Part shown: piece after piece, positions 36,736 through 47,688 of the stretch
Layout: the number at the start of each line of letters is the position of its first letter
Position numbering within the stretch: position 1 is the first letter of the stretch
Origin: Blastopirellula sediminis
GTDB taxonomy: Bacteria > Planctomycetota > Planctomycetia > Pirellulales > Pirellulaceae
NCBI RefSeq assembly: GCF_020966755.1
Contig: NZ_JAJKFT010000010.1
Coordinates: 3,690,481-3,754,480, forward strand
Reading direction: 5' to 3'
DNA: 64,000 nt
Made by a program: the position numbers and the translations under genes
Notes under the pieces: generated by a model
The model's database searches: none
What the model was told of the DNA's origin: nothing
The model's input: the letters and a program-made list of their open reading frames with translations, nothing else

Positions 36736-36807
36736 CCGCCTTCAGACTGCAGCGGCGGTGATAGCGATTATTCATTCATTTTGTTACTTCCAGGAACTGC
36801 AATTGAT

Positions 36808-37812
36808 ATGAACGCTTGCCGAAAGAGAGGTTTCACCCTGGTGGAACTGCTAGTTGTGATCGCCATCATCGGCGTCTTGATCGCTTTGCTGTTGCCTGCG
36901 GTTCAGCAGGCCCGCGAAGCGGCTCGCCGGATGCAGTGCACCAACCATCTGAAGCAACTCGCTTTGGCGCTGCACAACTACCACGATACCTTTGGCGTCT
37001 TTCCGGCGATCAGCTACGACCACGAAGTGAACGGCGGCGACGAGAACAGACACGCCAGCTGGAGCTGGGGAACCTGCATCCTGCCGCAGATCGAACAAAG
37101 CAACGCCTATGACATTCTTGCGCCGAGCCATCCCGATCGTTTGCATGAAGCGGTCAACAAGGCGGACAAGCTGCGCGTGCTGCAAACGCCGATTTCCTCG
37201 TGGCGTTGTCCCTCGGACGTTGGACCGGAACTGAACAGCCATCTGACGATCAACAATGGTTCTGGCAACCAGGCGCAAGACGTGCAAATCGCGACAGCCA
37301 ACTACCTGGGGGTGAATCATAGCGGCGACATTGGCCGGACCACCAAGAACGCTGCGGTGAACGGGATCTTTGTCGCCGGGACGAACGTCGCTCAGAACCG
37401 CCGCATGGTCTGCCGCTTGCGAGACGTGCTGGACGGTACCAGCAACACGGCGATGGTCGGCGAACGGGCCTGGATGCTCGGCGGCGTCGAACTGGGCGCC
37501 GGGCTGGTCTTCGGCCACACCGGCAACGAAGACATTGAAGATAGCCACAACTACAAAGATGGCTTCATTGCGGTGGTCGGCGCCGGCAAGACGCACATCA
37601 ATATGAACGACACCTGCGGCACCGGCTGCGACGATCGCGACGGCCGCCAGGGATTCTCCAGCTTGCATCCAGGGGGCGCCCAGTTCGCCTTCGCCGACGG
37701 TTCGGTTCACTTCCTGAACGAGAACATCGACGACGACTTTGGCGGTCCGGTCGATACGACCTACGAACGCATCTTGTCGTGCAACGATGGACAAGTGACC
37801 GGCAACTACTAA
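36808..37812 (+). CDS. DUF1559 pseudopilin-like protein, cassette 2
   Basis: 334 residues from the ATG at 36808 (AGGAA upstream). Leader MNACRKR, then GFTLVELL and a hydrophobic helix, then the DUF1559 body with the closing H-X9-DG motif (HPGGAQFAFADG). It has more Cys than the copy at 32925 (MNDTCGTGCDDRDG). Very similar to the third copy at 38595. Confidence 0.92.
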   Translation: MNACRKRGFTLVELLVVIAIIGVLIALLLPAVQQAREAARRMQCTNHLKQLALALHNYHDTFGVFPAISYDHEVNGGDENRHASWSWGTCILPQIEQSNAYDILAPSHPDRLHEAVNKADKLRVLQTPISSWRCPSDVGPELNSHLTINNGSGNQAQDVQIATANYLGVNHSGDIGRTTKNAAVNGIFVAGTNVAQNRRMVCRLRDVLDGTSNTAMVGERAWMLGGVELGAGLVFGHTGNEDIEDSHNYKDGFIAVVGAGKTHINMNDTCGTGCDDRDGRQGFSSLHPGGAQFAFADGSVHFLNENIDDDFGGPVDTTYERILSCNDGQVTGNY

Positions 37813-38382: not shown

Positions 38383-38594
38383 CATGCGCTGCCAATAAGT
38401 GAAATGCCGGCTCCTGTCATGCGGGACATCGCATGAAGATTCTCTGTTACTTACGAAAAAATCTCCAGATTACGCGGCCAAATCAGCGCAATTCTGTGGA
38501 GTGCTCCTGAGCCTGGGTCGCACCGCGGCCAGGTCGATGAATCCGTTGCGAAGCAGTGAGTTTGTTTCTTCATCGTCTTGGGAATTCCGTTGCA

Positions 38595-39614
38595 ATGAAA
38601 AGTCGTGGCAAGCAGGGTTTTACCCTGGTCGAGTTGTTGGTGGTGATTGCGATCATCGGCGTGTTGATCGCCCTGTTGCTGCCGGCAGTGCAGCAAGCGC
38701 GCGAAGCGGCGCGACGGATGCAATGCACCAACCACTTGAAGCAGTTAGGACTGGCGCTGCACAACTATCATGACACGTTCGGCGCGTTGCCGGCGATCAG
38801 CTACGACCACGAGGTGAACGGCGGTGATGAGACGAAGCACGCCAGTTGGAGCTGGGGAACTTGCATCCTGCCGCAGATGGAACAAAGTGCGGCCTATGAC
38901 ATTCTGGACCCCAGCAGTCCCGATCGATTGCACGAAGCGGTCAACAAGTCGGCAAAGTTGGCGGTGCTGCAGACGCCGATCGCATCGTGGCGTTGTCCGT
39001 CTGACGTCGGCCCGGTGCTGAACAGCCACTACACAATTAACAACGGATCGGGCAATCAAGCTCAAGACGTACAGATTGCGACGGCGAACTATCTCGGCGT
39101 GAACCATAGCGGCGACATTTGCCGAACCAACACTCCGACTTCGACCAAGAACTATCGGATCACCGGCGTCTTTGTGCCGGGAACGAACGTCCAGAAAAAC
39201 AATCGCATGGTTTGCCGGCTGCGAGACGTTTTGGATGGAACGAGCAACACGGCGATGGTCGGAGAACGGACCTGGATGCTCGGGGGCGTCGAGCTGGGCG
39301 CCGGTCTCATCTATGGTCACACTGGAAATGAGGACATCGAAAACAGCCACAACTACGTCGACGGCTTCATCGCGGTGGTTGGAGCGGGCAAAACGCACAT
39401 CAACATGAACGACACCTGCGGGACCGCTTGCGACGACCGCGATGGACGTCAAGGATTCGCGAGTCTCCATCCCGGCGGCGCACAATTCGTCTTCGTCGAC
39501 GGTTCCGTTCATTTCGTCAATGAGAACATCGACGACAACTTTGGCGGGCCCGACGATTCGACGTACGAGCGGCTGCTGTCGTGCAACGACGGTCAGACGC
39601 TGGGAACCTATTAG
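38595..39614 (+). CDS. DUF1559 pseudopilin-like protein, third copy without its own cassette
   Basis: 339 residues from the ATG at 38595. Leader MKSRGKQ then [11 protein letters not shown]1559 body and H-X9-DG ([12 protein letters not shown]). Close to the copy at 36808 through almost the whole length ([36 protein letters not shown] in both). It lies behind the terminator of cassette 2 with ~210 bp of its own leader and has no sigma, FecR or lipoprotein gene. It probably arose by duplication of the DUF1559 gene alone. Confidence 0.92.
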
Positions 39615-40263: not shown

Positions 40264-40812
40264 ATGTCTCCCGAAAACGAAGAGTCCAACCCGTTTGAGC
40301 CGCCGCATTCTGTCGACAGTTCCGCCCAAAAGCATTGGGTGGTGGTGTGGGGAGCGGCTGCGTTGTTGGTGCTGGCGACTGTCAGTTCGGGGATACTCGA
40401 CCCGTCGTTTCTTTGGGCGACGGTGAGCGTCGTCATCGGCGTTCCCGTTTTGATCAGAACGGCGCTCGATCTGAGTCGCAAGCTGGCGGCAGGTTGGGCG
40501 ATTGATCCTTTGGTGCAAATCAAGTCGCTATTTGTTTCCTTCGCCATCACGATCGTCTCGGTTGTCTCGGCTGGGATTGCCGGCGGGAGTTTGTGTTTCG
40601 CAGGCGTCACATCAGCGATGAGTACGCCGGTCTCGCTACAGTGGGTTGGCTTAGCGCTTATTTGGACGGCCATACCGATCGGGCTGCTGGTCCTCGGCAT
40701 CGCGTTCTACGCGTTTGGGCCCAAGAAAGTTGGACCACTGCAAAAACAAGCTGCCGAACATGGTGGAACGGAAACGTCGACGCCCGATGGCGAGACCAAG
40801 CGTGACCAGTGA
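40264..40812 (+). CDS. NPFEPP-type small membrane protein 1
   Basis: 182 residues; AGGGGA precedes the ATG. The N-terminal cytoplasmic tag SNPFEPP is followed by about four membrane segments (~22-45, 48-68, 85-115, 125-155). It shares with the next four proteins the loop pattern R-x3-D-x2-RK (RTALDLSRKLAAGWAI) and the Gly-Pro near the end (FGPKKVG). First gene of a chain of overlapping genes. Function unknown; NPxxxP-headed membrane proteins are frequent in Planctomycetes. Confidence 0.75.
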   Translation: MSPENEESNPFEPPHSVDSSAQKHWVVVWGAAALLVLATVSSGILDPSFLWATVSVVIGVPVLIRTALDLSRKLAAGWAIDPLVQIKSLFVSFAITIVSVVSAGIAGGSLCFAGVTSAMSTPVSLQWVGLALIWTAIPIGLLVLGIAFYAFGPKKVGPLQKQAAEHGGTETSTPDGETKRDQ

Positions 40813-41368
40813 GACGAGCGACAATCCGTTCGAGTCCCCCTGCGACGTCGGCGTTGCGCCGCCGTGGCGGAAGTGGTACTGCTGGTGGTCATTGTCGGCC
40901 ATGCTCGGCGCGATCGCACTGTGGGTGTTTTGGCTGCTGCCGTGGCTGGGTGCGATTCTCGTTTGCGTCGCGGCCGGGATCAGCGTGCGATCGCTCCTGG
41001 ATCTTTGCCGCAAGCACCAGGCCGGTTGTCTGATTACCGATACGACGCAATGGGTATCGTGCGGGGAGTCGATGATGGTCGCCTTCGCGGCGTCGATCGT
41101 TGGGCTGATCCTTTTCTTCAGTGTCTTCTTCTTAGCGTATCTCTTTATGGATGAGCAGATCGTCCTGTATCGGACCGAAGAGGACCTGCGAGCATACCGA
41201 ATGAAGATACGAGTCATATACGTAGTCGCCTACGCGATTACGACAGTCGGACTTGGAGCGTTTATCTGGGGAATGGGCCCTGATCGGCTCGATTCGTCAC
41301 CATTGTCGACTCTACGTCGAAATCGCGGGACGTCGAGGAATATTGAAGGGACGTACGATGACCGATAG
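40802..41368 (+). CDS. NPFESP-type small membrane protein 2
   Basis: 188 residues from the GTG at 40802, which overlaps the previous stop by 11 bases (an ATG at 40787 would overlap more). Head DNPFESP, then hydrophobic segments, the loop RSLLDLCRKHQAGCLI and a tail with MGPDRLDSSPLSTLRR. Same architecture as its neighbours at roughly family-level similarity. Confidence 0.72.
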   Translation: MTSETSDNPFESPCDVGVAPPWRKWYCWWSLSAMLGAIALWVFWLLPWLGAILVCVAAGISVRSLLDLCRKHQAGCLITDTTQWVSCGESMMVAFAASIVGLILFFSVFFLAYLFMDEQIVLYRTEEDLRAYRMKIRVIYVVAYAITTVGLGAFIWGMGPDRLDSSPLSTLRRNRGTSRNIEGTYDDR

Positions 41369-41894
41369 TCCCGAAGAGAATCCGTTTGAGCCTCCGGCCG
41401 TAGCCGCCAAACGCGAAAAAACCGAATCGGCGTTTTTCAAGGAGTGGCTGGTCGGCACGTTTTTTCTGTTCGTCTTGTCGACGCCTCTTTACCTGGCGGA
41501 CCTCGTTGCTGGCTTTTGGGCGAACGCTTTTGCGATCGTTGTTTCCCTCCGCTCTTTGATCGACCTGCGCAGAAAACAAGCGGCCGAATATTTGCAGCCG
41601 GGGGACGTTTGGATGTCGTTGGGAGCTTCGGTCTTGGTCGTGGGGGCGGCGTCCGTGGCAGGTACGCTCGCCTTCTTCATCGCAGGTTTCGCGGCCTGCA
41701 ATGCGGACTTACCGAAGACGGAAGACACCTTGAAATTCTACGTAATTGGGATCATTACGTCTGTCGCGGCGATTTTCTGCGCCGTCTTATATTTCCTGGG
41801 CCCTGCTTCGGTCGATACATTGCGACGGCGGAAACTTACGCAGGCAACTTTGGCGCCAAACGACCAGGGAGGCGAGTCGCGTGAAACGAACTGA
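41358..41894 (+). CDS. NPFEPP-type small membrane protein 3
   Basis: 178 residues from the ATG at 41358, with GAAGGGA upstream and an 11-base overlap with the previous gene. Head ENPFEPP, loop RSLIDLRRKQAAEYL, closing signature LGPASVDTLRRRKL and tail GGESRETN, the last identical to the tail of the next protein. About four membrane segments. Confidence 0.75.
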   Translation: MTDSPEENPFEPPAVAAKREKTESAFFKEWLVGTFFLFVLSTPLYLADLVAGFWANAFAIVVSLRSLIDLRRKQAAEYLQPGDVWMSLGASVLVVGAASVAGTLAFFIAGFAACNADLPKTEDTLKFYVIGIITSVAAIFCAVLYFLGPASVDTLRRRKLTQATLAPNDQGGESRETN

Positions 41895-41930
41895 CGCGCC
41901 ACCGGAGCGGGAAAACCCGTTTCAATCGCC
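41853..41930 (+). repeat. Gene-junction repeat, copy 1
   Basis: 78 bases spanning the end of membrane protein 3 and the start of protein 4. 68 of 78 bases match 42403-42480 at the next junction, 550 bp away. The trace of a tandem gene duplication. Confidence 0.8.
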
Positions 41931-42444
41931 ATCGGCGACGATTCGCGTCGCTCCATCCGATCCGCATGCCGAAAACGAGTTCATGGTCGGAGTCGTGCTG
42001 TCGTTTGCGCTCGCCTTAGTCCTATTCCTCTACCATCCGCTCGTAGGATTTATGGCGACGATCGGCGTGGCGATCGTCGTGATGCGGGCATGGCTCGAAA
42101 TCAGCCGGAAACAAGTCGTCGGTTGGAAGCTGCGACGCTGGGACGCGACGTGGATTCTGCTCGCTTCGGCCGGACGAATCGCCATTGCGGCGGTCTTTGG
42201 GATCGGCATAACGGGAATCGCCAGCGTCGCTGGGGCGGCCCTGTTTGAAGCAATTCCTTCGCTCGCTGACCGGTTTTCTCCCTTCGACGCAATCTTGGTG
42301 GACGGCGCGGTCGGCTTGACGGGAACTTTCGCGCTGTTGCTTCTCCTGGGACCCGCATCGGTCGAGACGCTGAGGCGACGGAAGCTTTCGCAGACTACTT
42401 CGGCGCCGAACGAACATGGAGGTGAGTCGCGTGAAACGAACTGA
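41881..42444 (+). CDS. NPFQSP-type small membrane protein 4
   Basis: 187 residues from the GTG at 41881, preceded by GGGAGGCGAG and overlapping the previous stop by 14 bases. Head ENPFQSP, loop RAWLEISRKQVVGWKL, closing LGPASVETLRRRKLSQ and tail GGESRETN. It is the closest relative of protein 3 at its C terminus and of protein 5 at its N terminus (VKRTDAPPE), as expected from tandem duplication. Confidence 0.75.
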   Translation: MKRTDAPPERENPFQSPSATIRVAPSDPHAENEFMVGVVLSFALALVLFLYHPLVGFMATIGVAIVVMRAWLEISRKQVVGWKLRRWDATWILLASAGRIAIAAVFGIGITGIASVAGAALFEAIPSLADRFSPFDAILVDGAVGLTGTFALLLLLGPASVETLRRRKLSQTTSAPNEHGGESRETN

Positions 42445-42480
42445 CGCACCGCCGGAGTACGAAAACCCGTATCAATCGCC
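42403..42480 (+). repeat. Gene-junction repeat, copy 2
   Basis: The counterpart of 41853-41930 at the junction of membrane proteins 4 and 5; includes the shared ribosome binding site and start region. Confidence 0.8.
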
Positions 42481-42979
42481 GGACGAAGTGGAGAAGCTGG
42501 TCGATCGACATTGGGCGGTTGTCATCGAGTTGGTTGTAGGATCGATATTTCTGTTCGCCTTATCAGGTCCGGTCTATTACTACGTCGATTCTAATTTTGG
42601 CATGGCGGCGAGCGGCATTGCGGCAGTCGTTGCGATACGCGCCGGTATTGACGTTCAAAGAAAGCTGGCGGCTGACTGTTTACAGCGAGGAGGTGCGTTG
42701 AAGTCGTTGGCGATATCGTTATTCCTGGTCGGCGCGACATGCGTCGCCGCGTACGTCGCTTGTTTTACGACATGTTTCGCCGCCGCTTCGATCTTTAACC
42801 ATCTCTACGACCAAAATATTGGGCTTCTCGTTCTGATTTCTTTCGGCTCTGGAGGCGTCGTCGGTTTGTCGGTCGGTTCGGCTCTCTTGTATTACCTCGG
42901 CCCTGCATCGGTCGAAATGCTGCGACGAACCCGCACGACGGAGAATTCAACGAATGTGCATGCAAAGGAGGAGGTATGA
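42431..42979 (+). CDS. NPYQSP-type small membrane protein 5
   Basis: 182 residues from the GTG at 42431, with the same upstream GGAGGTGAG as protein 4 (an ATG at 42416 is less likely). Head ENPYQSP, loop RAGIDVQRKLAADCLQ and closing LGPASVEMLRRTR. Four hydrophobic segments. The stop overlaps the next start (ATGA). Confidence 0.75.
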   Translation: MKRTDAPPEYENPYQSPDEVEKLVDRHWAVVIELVVGSIFLFALSGPVYYYVDSNFGMAASGIAAVVAIRAGIDVQRKLAADCLQRGGALKSLAISLFLVGATCVAAYVACFTTCFAAASIFNHLYDQNIGLLVLISFGSGGVVGLSVGSALLYYLGPASVEMLRRTRTTENSTNVHAKEEV

Positions 42980-43299
42980 GCCAAGGAGAATACGGCAAGA
43001 AGCTGGTCTCTTCCCTGGGGATCGCGTTCTTGGTTACCTTGGCGGCCTGCATTGCGCTATTGAGGAATTGCTTCGCCGCGGTCGCCACTCAAGTCCACAG
43101 ATCGTATCCTGGAAGAGTCGTCGATGGTTTGATCGGTCTGGCCTGCGTCCCTTCGGTGGGCATCATTTTTGTGGAGGTTCCGGCGACGCTTGCCTATCGA
43201 CTTGGACAGGCATCTTCCGATACGTTACGACAAGCGAAAGACGCCCAGAATTCGTCTCCCATGCCTGAGCAAGGATCCAAATCGAGTGAACGCACCTGA
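42976..43299 (+). CDS. Short membrane protein 6, headless relative of the NPFxxP family
   Basis: 107 residues with a strong AAGGAGGAGG ribosome binding site. Two membrane segments (~12-32, ~50-70) and the closing signature LGQASSDTLRQAK, matching LGPASVxxLRR of its neighbours. The NPFxxP head and the first half of the family are absent, so it is probably a truncated duplicate that has been kept. Confidence 0.65.
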   Translation: MSQGEYGKKLVSSLGIAFLVTLAACIALLRNCFAAVATQVHRSYPGRVVDGLIGLACVPSVGIIFVEVPATLAYRLGQASSDTLRQAKDAQNSSPMPEQGSKSSERT

Positions 43300-43909
43300 T
43301 CGAGATTGGTATATCGTCCGCCGCTGGCAGTCGTACGTCGCCGAAATGCGCGTTGTCGCGCTGCGGATGGCGGCGATCGTCGTTTGTTACGGCCTGCAGC
43401 TTTGGCATCACTTCGGCCTGCTCGACGAAGCGGGGCAAGCGGCCAATGCCGAGTTTCACAAGCAGGCGACGCTGATCGCGTGCGGGTGGCTCTTTTTGTC
43501 GCTGGCGGTCTGGCTGGTGCTATTGCGCCGCTGGTTTCCGCCGCTACTCAGTTACGTCAGCACGGCGGTCGACATCGCGTTTTTGACGACGCTGATCGCC
43601 GCCTCCGGCGGGCCGACGGCGACGCAGCTCGATACGTTTTACTTCTTTATCATCATCCTGGCGGGTCTGCGGTTTGAGCTTCCGCTCGTTTGGTGCGCGA
43701 CGTTGGCCACGATGGTTGGTTTTATGGCGAGCGTCGGCGCGGTTGATAAAACCTGGTTTGACGCCGAGCATACGGTGCCGCCGATCAGCCAAGGGATTAC
43801 GCTCGTCAGTTTGGGCGCGGCCGGTATCGTGGTTGGACAAATCGTTCGCCGCTCGAAAGACCTGGCGGTCGCCTACGCCGAGCGCAAGCGGCAAGGGGGC
43901 GAAGCATGA
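43286..43909 (+). CDS. Six-segment membrane protein of unknown function
   Basis: 207 residues from the GTG at 43286, overlapping the previous stop by 14 bases. Six hydrophobic segments in pairs, with an Arg-rich N terminus (YIVRRWQSYVAEMR) and a Lys/Arg C terminus. The layout resembles the membrane input domains of bacterial sensor kinases and cyclases, but no output domain is attached. It may be a stand-alone membrane module. The stop overlaps the next start (ATGA). Confidence 0.65.
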   Translation: MNAPDRDWYIVRRWQSYVAEMRVVALRMAAIVVCYGLQLWHHFGLLDEAGQAANAEFHKQATLIACGWLFLSLAVWLVLLRRWFPPLLSYVSTAVDIAFLTTLIAASGGPTATQLDTFYFFIIILAGLRFELPLVWCATLATMVGFMASVGAVDKTWFDAEHTVPPISQGITLVSLGAAGIVVGQIVRRSKDLAVAYAERKRQGGEA

Positions 43910-44364
43910 GTCGCTCGCTTCCCCATGTTCGCTGCCCCGAGTGCGGCGCCGACAACAACGCTTTCGCGGCGAACTGTTGGATTTGCCAACGTCCACTGGT
44001 CGACGAGGCGGAACTGGTGAAGGCGCTGCCGGTCGAAGCTCCTGCCTTCGTCGCCGGGGTCAACACCAAGGTCGGCAACGTGCTGTTGCTGTTCACGCTA
44101 ATCGCGCTGATTCTCGTCGGAATCGGCGTATCGACGGTCGAGCCTGTTGCGCTGATCTTTTATGCGATCTTGGTCGTCGCTCCCTGTTTAGGGGTGGGAA
44201 TAACGCTACGGCAGATCCTGGTCGCCAAAGACAAGCCGACGGCGACCGGCGGATTAACGGCGGTGTTAATCGTGGTCAGCGTTGTCGGATTACTGATGAT
44301 CTCGTTTGGGATTCTGTGCTTTACCGCTTGTTTGCAGATGTTTTCGCCCAACGCTTTTCACTGA
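43906..44364 (+). CDS. Zinc-ribbon membrane protein 1
   Basis: 152 residues. A cytoplasmic N-terminal zinc ribbon of two Cys pairs (CPECGAD ... CWICQRPL) at ~10-32, then a linker and about four membrane helices. The ribbon probably binds zinc and may recruit a partner. Coupled to both neighbours (ATGA before, TGATG after). One of three paralogues in a row. Confidence 0.75.
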   Translation: MSRSLPHVRCPECGADNNAFAANCWICQRPLVDEAELVKALPVEAPAFVAGVNTKVGNVLLLFTLIALILVGIGVSTVEPVALIFYAILVVAPCLGVGITLRQILVAKDKPTATGGLTAVLIVVSVVGLLMISFGILCFTACLQMFSPNAFH

Positions 44365-44879
44365 TGAGCGATCCTCGCCAACATCGAAACGCCAAGCTCG
44401 AGCCGCGGACGCTCCCGGTGGTTGCGTGCCCGGAGTGCGGCGCCGAGAACTATGCTTTTGCACCGCGTTGTTGGATTTGTCAGTGTAAGTTCGATCCAAA
44501 CGACCTGATCCAAGGAGAGAAAACCGTCGAGTCGCCAGCGTTTGCGCGACCCCATTCGCCACTAGCCGCCAACTTGCCGGTGTTGATCCTGCTGCCGGCC
44601 TTGATTGTGATCGGCTACGGAGTGGCGTGGCTCAACCCCTACCTGTTTATTCCTTACCTATTGCTGATCAGCTTGCCGATGCTGGGGATCTCGTTTTTGA
44701 TTCGGAGCAGTTGGACGCAGCCAGGACGCAAGCCCCTTCTTGGCGGAAGCATTGCGGTCTCGGTGATCCTTTTCCTGATGGCTATTTTAGGGTCGGCGAT
44801 CTTTGTGATCGCGGCGATTGTGATTCTGGTGTTTCTCATATGTACGAACCAAATTGACCGGACGAATCTGCCATGGTGA
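44364..44879 (+). CDS. Zinc-ribbon membrane protein 2
   Basis: 171 residues from the ATG at 44364, sharing one base with the preceding stop. Zinc ribbon CPECGAENYAFAPRCWICQCKF at ~22-44 (its last Cys adds a fifth), then about four membrane helices. Paralogue of the genes on both sides. Confidence 0.75.
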   Translation: MSDPRQHRNAKLEPRTLPVVACPECGAENYAFAPRCWICQCKFDPNDLIQGEKTVESPAFARPHSPLAANLPVLILLPALIVIGYGVAWLNPYLFIPYLLLISLPMLGISFLIRSSWTQPGRKPLLGGSIAVSVILFLMAILGSAIFVIAAIVILVFLICTNQIDRTNLPW

Positions 44880-45415
44880 TGGACGAGCCGAGTAATCCAG
44901 AGCGACGTCCGCTGACCCCTTCTTCGGTGAAGCTCATCCAGTGCCCCGAGTGCGGCGCCGAGAACCAGGCGTTCGCCGCGAACTGTTGGATTTGCCAACG
45001 CCCGCTGGCGGAAGAAGAGATGATCGAAGCGAAGCTTGCGCCGGCGCCGCCGAAGTACGTCGACACCACGAGCAGCATCTTCGCCTATTTGCTTTTGGTC
45101 CTGTCGAGCCTGGCGATCATCCTGATGGGAGTCGGCGTTTATTACGTAAACCCCGTCTGGGCCCTTTATTACGTCCTGCTGTTTGGCGTTCCGCTGATGG
45201 CGGCCGGCGTTGGGATCTTCTACGCGTTGCTCAGTAATGATGAAAATATTCGAAAGGCAGGAGCCATTTTCGCGTCCTTTTACGCGATAGGGATGACGAT
45301 CTTGGGATCGTTGGGGATCGTGTTTTTGACGATCGCCGCCATTGTTATATTTGTGATCAGCGTTTGCGCTGGTTTTGCTGAACTCTGCTTCGGACCGCAA
45401 AACACGGGGAATTGA
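44873..45415 (+). CDS. Zinc-ribbon membrane protein 3
   Basis: 180 residues from the ATG at 44873 (an ATG at 44879 is possible). Zinc ribbon CPECGAEN ... CWICQRPL at ~24-46, acidic linker, four membrane helices. The stop is 4 bp before the radical SAM start, so the zinc-ribbon trio and the radical SAM gene are one operon. Confidence 0.75.
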   Translation: MVMDEPSNPERRPLTPSSVKLIQCPECGAENQAFAANCWICQRPLAEEEMIEAKLAPAPPKYVDTTSSIFAYLLLVLSSLAIILMGVGVYYVNPVWALYYVLLFGVPLMAAGVGIFYALLSNDENIRKAGAIFASFYAIGMTILGSLGIVFLTIAAIVIFVISVCAGFAELCFGPQNTGN

Positions 45416-45419
45416 TCCA

Positions 45420-46931
45420 ATGCTCAAGCCGCATGATCTAGCGCGACGCGACTACACCGTCCTGGGCGTGACGCAAAGTCTTTGCCCCGAGTGCCTGGCC
45501 GTCGTCCCGGCCAAGATCATCACCAAGGGGAACCGCGTCTACTTTCGCAAACGTTGCCCCGAGCATGGCGAACGGGACGACTTCGTCTGCTCCGACGTCG
45601 CCCAGTACGATCAACTGCAATACAGCGTTCCGGGCAAGGTGCCGCATGAATTTGGCGTGCTGCCGGAGAAAGGGTGTCCGCTCGATTGCGGGCTCTGCAC
45701 CGAGCATGAACAGCACAGCTGCATCGGCCTGCTCGAGATCACGTCGAGCTGCAATCTTTCGTGCCCGATGTGCTATGCCGGCAGCGGTCCCGGCGGTAAA
45801 CATCTGACCGTCGCCGAGTGTCAGGCCGCGATTGATCGGCTGGTCGAAGTAGAAGGGCGTCCCGAGGTGCTGCAGCTTTCTGGCGGCGAGCCGACGATTC
45901 ATCCCGAGTTTGAAACGATCCTCGCCTACGCCCTGTCGCAGCCGATCGACTACGTGATGATCAACACGAATGGCATTCGTCTGGCTCGCGATCTGGAACT
46001 GGTCGAGCGGCTAGCGAAACATCGCGACCGGATCGAGATCTATCTGCAGTTCGACGGCTTCAGCGAAGAGGCGTCGTTGCTGCTGCGGGGTGAATCGCTG
46101 GTCGAAACCAAGAAGAAGGCGGTCGAGCGGTGCGGTGAAGCGGGACTGCACGTCAATCTGGTCGCGACCCTGCAAACCGACGTCAATCACGATCAGCTGG
46201 GCGCACTGGTCGACTACTGCGTCGACAAGCCATGGATCACTGGGCTCAGTTTCCAGCCGGCGACCTACAGCGGTCGACATGTTTTGCCGGAGGTGCTCGA
46301 GCGGCGGATTACCTTCCCCGATGTGATTCGCGGAATTGATGAGCAGACGGAGGGACGTTTCCGGCAAAGCGACTTCATGCCGCTCCCATGTGCGCATCCG
46401 AACTGTCACCAGATGAGCTACGCCTATCGATATCAGGGGAAACTGATTCCGCTGATGCGGTTTATCGACGCGACGCAGCATATCGACCTGTTAGCGAGCG
46501 GCATCTCCTTCACGCGACCGGCGGTGCGCGATCTGCTGGAACGTTATCTCGCGCGACAAGGTTGTTGCAGCGGCGGTAATTGCGGAACTTCGACTCCGGT
46601 CGATAACAACGATCCGTTCGCCATCATTGAGCCGCCGACTTGCGAGCCGGAACTAGAACTGTCGCCCGAGATGTTCGCCGATCCCGAGATCGGAGCCGCC
46701 GCGGTCGATTTCTTTGCGAAGGCGATGCGGCAAGAGCTAGGCGCCGGCGACGTCTTTCGGGTGATGGTCACGTCGTTTCTCGACGCGTACAACTTTGACG
46801 TCCGCCGCGTTATGAAATGCTGCATTCATCATGTGCTGCCGAGCGGACATTTGATTCCGTTCTGCGCTTACAACGTCCTCTATCGCGACGGCCATGTGCC
46901 GCTGCCGCCGCTCGATCGAAAGCACGTCTAG
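45420..46931 (+). CDS. Radical SAM enzyme resembling tetraether/membrane-spanning lipid synthases
   Basis: 503 residues from the ATG at 45420. An N-terminal Cys-rich domain has CPEC at 22-25 and KRCPEHG near 50, then GCPLDCGLCTEHEQHSC. The radical SAM cluster motif C-x3-C-x2-C is at Cys111, Cys115 and Cys118 (SSCNLSCPMCY), and SGGEPT is the SAM-binding GGE. The C-terminal region adds CCSGGNCG and MKCCIHH. The order of an N-terminal Cys domain, GCPxxCGLC and the SAM core is that of the MJ0619/Tes group, some of which join lipid alkyl chains. Lipid tail modification is inference, supported by the Lgt-like neighbour. Confidence 0.85.
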   Translation: MLKPHDLARRDYTVLGVTQSLCPECLAVVPAKIITKGNRVYFRKRCPEHGERDDFVCSDVAQYDQLQYSVPGKVPHEFGVLPEKGCPLDCGLCTEHEQHSCIGLLEITSSCNLSCPMCYAGSGPGGKHLTVAECQAAIDRLVEVEGRPEVLQLSGGEPTIHPEFETILAYALSQPIDYVMINTNGIRLARDLELVERLAKHRDRIEIYLQFDGFSEEASLLLRGESLVETKKKAVERCGEAGLHVNLVATLQTDVNHDQLGALVDYCVDKPWITGLSFQPATYSGRHVLPEVLERRITFPDVIRGIDEQTEGRFRQSDFMPLPCAHPNCHQMSYAYRYQGKLIPLMRFIDATQHIDLLASGISFTRPAVRDLLERYLARQGCCSGGNCGTSTPVDNNDPFAIIEPPTCEPELELSPEMFADPEIGAAAVDFFAKAMRQELGAGDVFRVMVTSFLDAYNFDVRRVMKCCIHHVLPSGHLIPFCAYNVLYRDGHVPLPPLDRKHV

Positions 46932-46935
46932 TCCC

Positions 46936-47688
46936 ATGATGATCAACCCGACCTATATCGTGATCATGGCGACGGCGATTGCGCTTTGCAGTTTGATGGT
47001 GCGCCGATCGCAGCAGAAGTTGCCCCTGACCCGGGAAGAAAAGTTCGGGCTGGGACTTGGCGGTTTTTGCGGCGCGATGATCGGCGCCAAGCTGCCGTTC
47101 GTCTTGTACGACCTGGAAGGACTCTGGAGCGGCGGCGCATGGTTTGCGCATGGCAAGACGATCGTCTGCGGCCTGGCCGGCGGTTATCTCGGCGTCGAAA
47201 TCGCCAAATGGCTGATGAACGTCCGGATCAAAACCGGGGACTCCTTCGCCGCGCCGGTTGCGTTCGCGATCGCCATCGGCCGCTGGGGCTGTTTCTTCGG
47301 CGGCTGTTGTTTTGGAACGCCGACGACCTTGCCGTGGGGCGTCGCTTTTCCGACTGCAGTCGACGATCCGCTGGCGCTGCGGCATCCGACGCAGATCTAC
47401 GAGAGTCTTTTTCATCTGACGATGGGCTTTACGCTGCTATGGCTACAGCGGAAAGGTTGGTTCCGCGGGCAGCTGATGAAGCTCTATATCCTGGTCTATC
47501 TCGGCTATCGCTTTTTGACCGAGATGATTCGTCCCGAGCCGCGGTACTTCGTCGGATTGACGGCGTATCAATGGGGGGCGATCGCCCTGGCGATCATCTT
47601 CATCTGGCTTTGGCGACGCGACGCAGCGGCGCTGTCCGCCGAGAGCGCACAAAAAGAGCCGCGTCCAGCGGACGCGGCTGCAGATTAG
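46936..47688 (+). CDS. Lgt-like (prolipoprotein diacylglyceryl transferase family) membrane protein
   Basis: 250 residues, about seven membrane helices. Lgt-family segments are GKTIVCGLAGGYLGVE, IGRWGCFFGGCCFG, HPTQIYES and RFLTEMIRPEP. In true Lgt the central motif reads GRxGNFxNxE; here Cys residues replace the Asn/Glu, so it belongs to an Lgt-like side branch and should not be taken as the cell's lipoprotein enzyme. It starts 4 bp behind the radical SAM gene. Transfer of a glycerolipid unit in the same pathway is inference. A terminator for rho lies inside its last codons. Confidence 0.8.
   Translation: MMINPTYIVIMATAIALCSLMVRRSQQKLPLTREEKFGLGLGGFCGAMIGAKLPFVLYDLEGLWSGGAWFAHGKTIVCGLAGGYLGVEIAKWLMNVRIKTGDSFAAPVAFAIAIGRWGCFFGGCCFGTPTTLPWGVAFPTAVDDPLALRHPTQIYESLFHLTMGFTLLWLQRKGWFRGQLMKLYILVYLGYRFLTEMIRPEPRYFVGLTAYQWGAIALAIIFIWLWRRDAAALSAESAQKEPRPADAAAD
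47651..47679 (-). terminator. Intrinsic terminator of rho, inside the Lgt-like gene
   Basis: agccgcgtcc (47657-47666), loop agc, ggacgcggct (47670-47679): a perfect 10-bp stem. On the minus strand it is followed by CTTTTT (complement of 47651-47656). It lies 82 nt beyond the rho stop and within the 3' end of the convergent Lgt-like coding sequence. Confidence 0.85.

Follow-up and report, generated by a model that had tools for sequence, protein, structure and literature searches.

The window analysed here, a stretch of 64,000 nucleotides on contig NZ_JAJKFT010000010.1 of the 7.05-Mb genome of Blastopirellula sediminis, raises the question of what a packed run of membrane genes is for when it ends with a Tes-like radical S-adenosylmethionine (SAM) enzyme and an Lgt-like membrane protein. 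The run consists of twelve + strand open reading frames, from 40264 to 47688, read from the window sequence. With the preferred starts, neighbouring genes overlap by 1-14 bp and the last two junctions are gaps of 4 bp, which bears out the packed twelve-gene membrane operon of a preliminary description. That description had also treated all twelve genes as one specific system, which could make or place an unusual membrane lipid or a lipid-linked protein. We found, by tblastn of the twelve proteins over related loci, that the conserved unit of the operon is its last two genes, not all twelve. These two core genes encode the radical SAM enzyme (protein 11, 503 amino acids (aa), 45420-46931, + strand) and the Lgt-like protein (protein 12, 250 aa, 46936-47688, + strand). 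The nearest named relative in our genome search was Blastopirellula marina DSM 3645, whose radical SAM protein is 92% identical.

The explanation that we favour, still a tentative one, is that the pair may be a two-part enzyme that would re-bond the acyl chains of a membrane phospholipid. The pair was not found in print in full-text searches, whose coverage did not extend to most subscription papers and preprints.

Co-occurrence and adjacency of the gene pair

Among 60 related genomes, B. sediminis included, which are not independent draws, 20 carried both genes, one the radical SAM gene only, none the Lgt-like gene only, and 39 neither; the Fisher values calculated for co-occurrence take no account of phylogeny. 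A strong radical SAM match was defined as E below 1e-50 and was present in 21 genomes, while most of the others gave weak matches only, from unrelated radical SAM proteins. The Lgt-like profile, most of whose source genes adjoin a radical SAM gene or share a genome with one, gave at least 249.8 bits in 20 of the 60 genomes, and the next score was 83.3. In the odd genome (G019; locus L108, G019:C335) the radical SAM gene is broken, its pieces lying in three frames and roughly the final 80 residues being without a match. Both genes start within 4 kb in 14 of the 20 pair genomes, five (G013, G021, G030, G033, and G051) keep them far apart, and in G020, where each sits on its own short contig, they may be neighbours.

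A similar analysis was carried out in other phyla, with genomes assigned to phyla through the loci leading to them (the bins of L045, L070, and L071 may hold misplaced contigs). The 193 Omnitrophota genomes included eight with both genes, one with the radical SAM gene only, none with the Lgt-like gene only, and 184 with neither; in the radical SAM-only genome, G656, an Lgt-like gene scoring 144 bits lies at a distance of 1.4 kb from the radical SAM gene. The corresponding counts for the 282 Myxococcota genomes were 16, four, three, and 259. One of the four radical SAM-only genomes (G378) has a 127-bit Lgt-like gene adjoining the radical SAM gene, and in one of the three Lgt-like-only genomes (G356, L071) the radical SAM gene is cut at a contig end. 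For these two phyla, the score lines were chosen once the lists had been inspected (Lgt-like, about 190 bits in Omnitrophota and about 150 in Myxococcota; radical SAM, at least 376 and at least about 480 bits, respectively), and genomes with weaker matches, 3 of 12 in Omnitrophota and 25 of 45 in Myxococcota, were set aside as other branches. The number of best candidates scored per genome was up to five in Planctomycetota, up to five and up to ten in Myxococcota, and up to eight and up to 14 in Omnitrophota. For Patescibacteria, the radical SAM protein was present in the starting genome only, one of 286. A further case is G666 (L208, G666:C4:194238-195164), counted as a radical SAM genome and kept outside the tree, where the radical SAM gene has two internal TAG codons, which may reflect decay or recoding, and the adjoining Lgt-like gene is uninterrupted.

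Then, we examined the position of the two genes relative to each other. A profile survey of 294 Planctomycetota genomes gave 53 with a radical SAM match at E 1e-30, several branches included. At 23 of the 30 best loci (window included) the two genes adjoin each other and have the same orientation. The exceptions are L111, L123, L130, L133, L134, L137, and L139; several of these seven loci lie at contig ends, and in L111 the Lgt-like gene is 3.75 kb away. Both gene orders occur. Beyond Planctomycetota, members of Myxococcota, Omnitrophota, Patescibacteria, Bacteroidota, and Actinomycetota carry the pair as well: it is adjacent in Persicobacter and Nonomuraea, and two genes lie between its members both in Mycobacterium branderi and in Ca. 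Buchananbacteria, one of the two in the latter being an ICMT/PEMT-type methyltransferase. As regards the pair, the neighbourhood is therefore conserved far beyond close relatives, with adjacency seen in several phyla. As a side observation, read by eye, the pair at L155 (G101:C48) comes directly after succinate dehydrogenase-like subunit frames.

At one locus (L022/L092, one gene) the two domains share a single open frame of 733 codons, with LGT at residues 13-234, the HMPTM zinc ribbon at 267-309, and radical SAM at 392-551; homologues of the six-helix and zinc-ribbon genes of the operon lie upstream of it. Passages of PMC8689077 describe the C-terminus of Escherichia coli Lgt as cytoplasmic, thus the order of domains in the fused frame would place the radical SAM part in the cytoplasm. 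Other long frames were evaluated as fusions and rejected, as only L022/L092 holds both domains among the loci compared.

Taken as a conserved pair, the two genes are a partnership, with a likely role in lipids, and their products very probably act together.

The radical SAM protein and its relatives

Protein 11 shares ancestry with Tes. It contains the Pfam radical SAM (PF04055) and HMPTM zinc-ribbon (PF23545) domains, and its closest PDB entry by sequence is 7tol (E 4.8e-78). Its predicted model (predicted local distance difference test (pLDDT) 82, with residues 82-97 and 384-411 below 50) matched 7tom over the full length in Foldseek (E 8e-39, template modelling (TM) score 0.76), the best non-Tes match being at 4.7e-10. 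The membership in the Tes/MJ0619 superfamily, suggested from the Cys layout in the preliminary description, is supported.

Tes, or GDGT-MAS (MJ0619; 7TOL, 7TOM), is the best match in sequence and fold, and its metal-ligand Cys and His positions are identical in protein 11. The rubredoxin-like iron ligands C22, C25, C46, and H49 align with Tes C9, C12, C33, and H36; the N-terminal cluster residues C86, C90, C93, and H96 with Tes C73, C77, C80, and H83; the radical SAM cluster residues C111, C115, and C118 with Tes C98, C102, and C105; and, in the C-terminal domain, C329, C467, C468, and C482 with Tes C338, C455, C456, and C470. The cluster-binding role of individual C-terminal Cys, like the residue number of the N-terminal-cluster His in Tes, is our inference. 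The positions of Tes Arg210, Gln268, and Arg275 are also identical in protein 11, while Phe106 corresponds to Tyr119 and Ser271 to Thr282.

The radical SAM tree included 135 rows, and like the Lgt tree described below it was a quick search. Its rows were thinned from 173 to 132 at 92% identity, and those below 150 bits or 380 profile positions were dropped; the sole proven archaeal Tes in it is MJ0619, in pieces, and the long rows, the fused frame included, were not firmly placed. The window protein falls in a group of 100 rows with a Shimodaira-Hasegawa-like approximate likelihood ratio test (SH-aLRT) value of 93, in which 64 rows are adjacent to an Lgt-like gene, 23 are not, and 13 are truncated at contig ends; the genomes with far-apart pairs account for five of the 23. 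Coherently with the preliminary description, which had proposed a lipid-type enzyme, the protein is in no clade of known non-lipid role, its own clade being without an experimentally assigned function.

A separate group of 30 rows (SH-aLRT 100), from Myxococcota and Planctomycetota, has 25 rows from stretches with two or three copies. These tandem genes belong to the same superfamily as protein 11 but differ from it in having no Lgt-like neighbour. The Cys at Tes positions C338, C455, and C470 are kept in 30/30 rows of this branch (L140, L141, L143, L144, L149, L190, L192-L196, and L198), the clade lists for residue counts being picked by hand from the tree. If there is a strict bacterial Tes, the proteins of the tandem branch seem the better candidates.

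The fold and the Cys/His ligands could also be explained if protein 11 were a plain bacterial Tes, producing tetraether-like or diabolic-acid-like lipids, and the Lgt-like gene an uninvolved neighbour; parts of PMC8941075 and PMC11868695 indeed propose bacterial Tes homologues as makers of branched tetraethers. We consider this improbable, because an uninvolved neighbour would not be expected to co-occur so tightly, to be kept in five genomes where the genes are far apart, or to share a frame with the radical SAM domain. Furthermore, protein 11 is placed outside the MJ0619 branch and scored under the family cut-off. Other differences from Tes are the dedicated Lgt-like partner, His in place of Tyr459, and Thr in place of Met439.

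The highest-scoring NCBIfam model for protein 11 is not Tes but the TrsS radical SAM (seleno)protein (NF045646), with 355 bits; TrsS appears in a table of selenoproteins within PMC13188914. This leads to a different possibility, namely that the enzyme forms a carbon-sulphur or carbon-selenium bond, or makes another non-coupling change, perhaps followed by methylation, which would give a thiolated or capped lipid. Two Omnitrophota loci (L218 and L219) have a cluster composed of an AMP-binding enzyme, the Lgt-like gene, an ICMT/PEMT methyltransferase, and a Tes/TrsS-like radical SAM gene, together with an ArsP-type permease and a Se/S-carrier-like protein. The AMP-binding enzyme and the methyltransferase favour lipids, while the permease and the carrier-like protein keep the sulphur chemistry alive. 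The methyltransferase neighbours of the radical SAM genes at L073 and L074 are coherent with it as well, the L073 protein also being under the TrsS cut-off (336 bits), as is the carbon-sulphur intermediate that Tes forms with its own cluster, according to passages of PMC9433317. Nevertheless, the window operon has no methyltransferase, adjoining or otherwise, and no carrier gene, and protein 11 keeps the C-terminal Cys of Tes and scores below the TrsS cut-off of 490, so we regard this chemistry as unlikely.

The same possibility gains a further point from L113, where codon 381 of the listed radical SAM reading is an in-frame TGA (CCAPGES-TGA-GP) and L114 has Cys, a candidate selenocysteine from the sequence. 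As a widespread feature of the relatives, selenocysteine was rejected, since over five loci inspected only one TGA was not terminal. Two other radical SAM enzymes, which act on membrane-spanning lipids, can be likened to protein 11 by description only: Gms, described in a part of PMC11186832 as forming a C(sp3)-C(sp3) bond, and Mss, described in a part of PMC11868695 as coupling fatty acids.

The Pfam domain name HMPTM presumably preserves the older assignment of MJ0619 to pterin methylation, and it could be taken in favour of a non-lipid role of this kind. Such a role appears very improbable for protein 11, whose partner is an Lgt-family membrane protein. In addition, the Tes authors, in passages of PMC9433317, were unable to corroborate what had been found earlier, and regarded methanopterin and similarly bulky, hydrophilic compounds as unlikely substrates.

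The Lgt-like protein and a possible joint reaction

Protein 12 shares ancestry with Lgt: the Pfam LGT match (PF01790, 118.4 bits against a cut-off of 24.9) bears out the relationship already noticed in the preliminary description, and the profile of its family matched E. coli Lgt 5azb at E 1.8e-17. It missed the NCBIfam cut-offs for Lgt, with 70.1 of 118.9 bits for TIGR00544 and 103.1 of 334 for NF000778. In the Lgt tree, from which rows below 170 positions and repeated stretches were dropped, a branch with SH-aLRT 98 separates the Lgt-like rows from the E. coli and canonical planctomycete Lgts. Of these Lgt-like rows, 68 are near a same-strand radical SAM gene and 12 are not, four of the latter being near one on the other strand. 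A canonical Lgt is encoded elsewhere in the genome (G000:C10:299213-300253). An LGT-family match above cut-off was present in 60/60 related genomes, and the Lgt-like copy is additional to the canonical one in all 20 carriers.

The E. coli Lgt residues R143, Y235, R239, E243, H196, and E202 are identical in 25/25 Lgt-like rows, and R246 in 24; in protein 12, R143 and R239 correspond to R116 and R192. Thus, protein 12 shares with Lgt (5AZB, 5AZC) both the Pfam family and the head-group residues R143, Y235, R239, R246, and E202. Passages of PMC8689077 name Arg143, Asn146, Tyr235, and Arg239 as crucial, assign Glu202 and Arg246 to the network around docked phosphatidylglycerol, and propose His103 as the catalytic residue. 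The differences from Lgt, beyond the missed cut-offs, the separate clade, and the additional copy, concern this His103, which is Val77 in protein 12 and Val, Leu, Thr, or Met in 24/25 Lgt-like rows; the position is Tyr in the four canonical planctomycete Lgts compared. Asn146 is replaced by Cys in 25/25 Lgt-like rows, and this change is uninformative because all four canonical planctomycete Lgts compared carry the same Cys. For the same reason, Cys at Lgt positions 146, 151, and 152 was rejected as a sign of new chemistry, being found in the canonical Lgts of four related genomes.

The retention of these residues suggests that the Lgt-like protein could still be an active transferase, moving a diacylglyceryl unit, before or after its modification by the radical SAM enzyme, to an acceptor other than a lipoprotein cysteine. 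Possible acceptors include other lipids, sugars, and the small membrane proteins that the operon encodes, and the radical SAM enzyme would make or finish the special lipid. The small membrane proteins encoded beside the Lgt-like gene are coherent with it, and the presence of a canonical Lgt means that the lipoprotein work is already covered. Two facts make us doubt this explanation: the proposed catalytic His103 is replaced in 24/25 rows, and no conserved acceptor was found, as the NPFxxP and zinc-ribbon proteins of the operon are missing from most loci. A lipid-linked protein, put forward in the preliminary description, could also be the product; no acceptor was found for it. To our knowledge, a non-lipoprotein role for an Lgt-family protein would be a first.

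Returning to the two-part lipid enzyme, the two genes are kept together, lost together, and once fused, and their relatives are a lipid-tail joiner and a phosphatidylglycerol binder; the simplest reading is, therefore, one two-part lipid enzyme. Its target would probably be a membrane lipid. In this model, the Lgt-like protein, in the inner membrane, would bind a phosphatidylglycerol-type lipid through the head-group pocket that it has in common with Lgt, and would dock the soluble Tes-like radical SAM enzyme on the cytoplasmic face. The radical SAM enzyme would pull the acyl chains into its tunnel, where a 5'-deoxyadenosyl radical would abstract a chain hydrogen. A new bond would then be made in the chains; as in Tes, and with the help of the C-terminal iron-sulphur cluster, it would most likely join a carbon of one chain to a carbon of another. 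The bacterium would thereby gain a membrane lipid that is cross-linked or unusual in another way, and the small membrane proteins would have an accessory part. That the chains are joined to each other is a plausible outcome to which we give somewhat less than even credence.

Several observations weigh against this model. Co-occurrence does not prove contact between the two proteins. The fused frame of L022/L092 has a divergent sequence, and the genome that carries it is a draft with 78% completeness and 6% contamination; on the records of the plasmid relatives L073 and L074, with their methyltransferase neighbour, there is no Lgt-like gene anywhere. The tandem branch has zero Lgt-like neighbours in its 20 well-flanked rows, the other 10 being cut by contig ends. 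As for the likeness to Tes, protein 11 obtained 302 bits with the NCBIfam Tes model (NF045702) and missed the equivalog cut-off of 450; MJ0619 is outside both groups of the tree, with a branch of SH-aLRT 98 splitting it from the window protein; and the labile ligand Met439 of Tes is Thr451, while Tyr459 is His471. According to passages of PMC9433317, Tyr459 is strictly conserved in Tes, while the mutants Y459F, Y459L, and M439A remained active, which softens the last two differences. Another Lgt-linked subclade, with 44 rows, has Ser or Thr at the position of Tes C455 in 41 and Asp or Glu at that of C470 in 44, and the two actinobacterial proteins and the fused frame do not have the usual Cys pattern of the N-terminal cluster. 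The mechanism of Tes cannot, therefore, hold for the whole family, and the chemistry may vary within it, judging from these residues. Finally, Foldseek with the model of protein 12 (pLDDT 89) gave zero PDB matches at E 0.001 or better.

Weighing these points, we suggest with some reserve that the pair could represent a widespread family, present in at least six bacterial phyla, in which an Lgt-family presenter or transferase would work with a Tes-like chain re-bonder, distinct from both archaeal Tes and the tandem genes.

The upstream membrane proteins and the meaning of the pair

The ten genes that precede the pair encode small proteins, every one with long hydrophobic runs, and a Pfam scan of the ten gave zero matches above cut-off. 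The parts list of the preliminary description was largely confirmed by motifs and paralogy, that is, five NPFxxP proteins, a truncated relative, and three zinc-ribbon proteins. Proteins 1-5 are paralogues that share the motif NPFxxP or NPYxxP close to the N-terminus, with 26-37% identity in 8/10 pairs (pairs reported by BLASTP). They are NPFxxP membrane protein 1, the first of what is a genus-level tandem array (182 aa, 40264-40812, + strand), protein 2 (188 aa from GTG 40802, ATG 40787 being possible, 40802-41368, +), protein 3 (178 aa, 41358-41894, +), protein 4 (187 aa, GTG start, 41881-42444, +), and the NPYxxP protein 5 (182 aa from GTG 42431, ATG 42416 being possible, 42431-42979, +). 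Protein 6 (107 aa, 42976-43299, +) is a short relative without the motif and is 30-36% identical to proteins 3, 4, and 5.

Protein 7 (207 aa, GTG start, 43286-43909, +) had been described as a six-helix protein. The multi-helix frame is present, but the match to the PilS-like six-helix domain (PF25323) is weak and below the Pfam cut-off (20.2 bits against 27, E 5e-4). The zinc-ribbon-like membrane proteins 8 (152 aa, 43906-44364, +), 9 (171 aa, 44364-44879, +), and 10 (180 aa, 44873-45415, +) have CPEC...CWIC N-termini and are mutual paralogues, with 32-37% identity.

We compared the presence of these genes across 48 loci, many of which have short flanks. Homologues of the six-helix gene were found in 12/48 and those of the merged zinc-ribbon/NPF cluster in 14/48, three of them within the genus in each case. 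The six-helix and zinc-ribbon genes thus extend to other genera yet are missing from most of the loci, and both (proteins 7 and 8) are likely accessory. A tblastn search of the loci, often short-flanked, detected NPFxxP homologues in the genus and one close relative (L006/L061/L099) only.

The pattern AAYCCNTWYNNNYCNCCN has 42 matches in the genome, compared with 15 for a reversed control. Copies of the N-terminal motif are arranged in tandem at three further sites, near 190, 1506, and 3618 kb of contig 10; the members of these arrays (L214, L216, and L217) are dissimilar membrane proteins, with the motif NP[FY]xSP/PP. At a fourth cluster, near 513 kb (L215), the motif is not at the starts of the listed frames. 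On the basis of the pattern counts and of the three further arrays, the NPFxxP proteins were rejected as specific lipid partners. The view of all twelve genes as one specific system does not hold, then, because the NPFxxP array is local and its motif occurs in other arrays of the same genome, and because most of the compared loci lack the six-helix and zinc-ribbon genes.

Upstream of the operon, two similar proteins with pseudopilin-like N-termini (36781-37812 and 38556-39614) were read by eye, with a small lipoprotein-like frame between them.

Tes homologues were reported in 110/684 Planctomycetota metagenome-assembled genomes in a part of PMC11868695. Passages of this paper and of PMC8941075 treat the function of the bacterial homologues as putative and read their presence as a potential for branched tetraethers, lipids that serve climate reconstruction. 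If, in a large bacterial branch, the enzyme acts together with an Lgt-like protein to give a different product, these Tes counts would need to be split by clade. If bacterial lipids are indeed cross-linked, the pair would provide candidate genes for membrane-spanning lipids, and the cultured genus Blastopirellula would provide a test bed for them.

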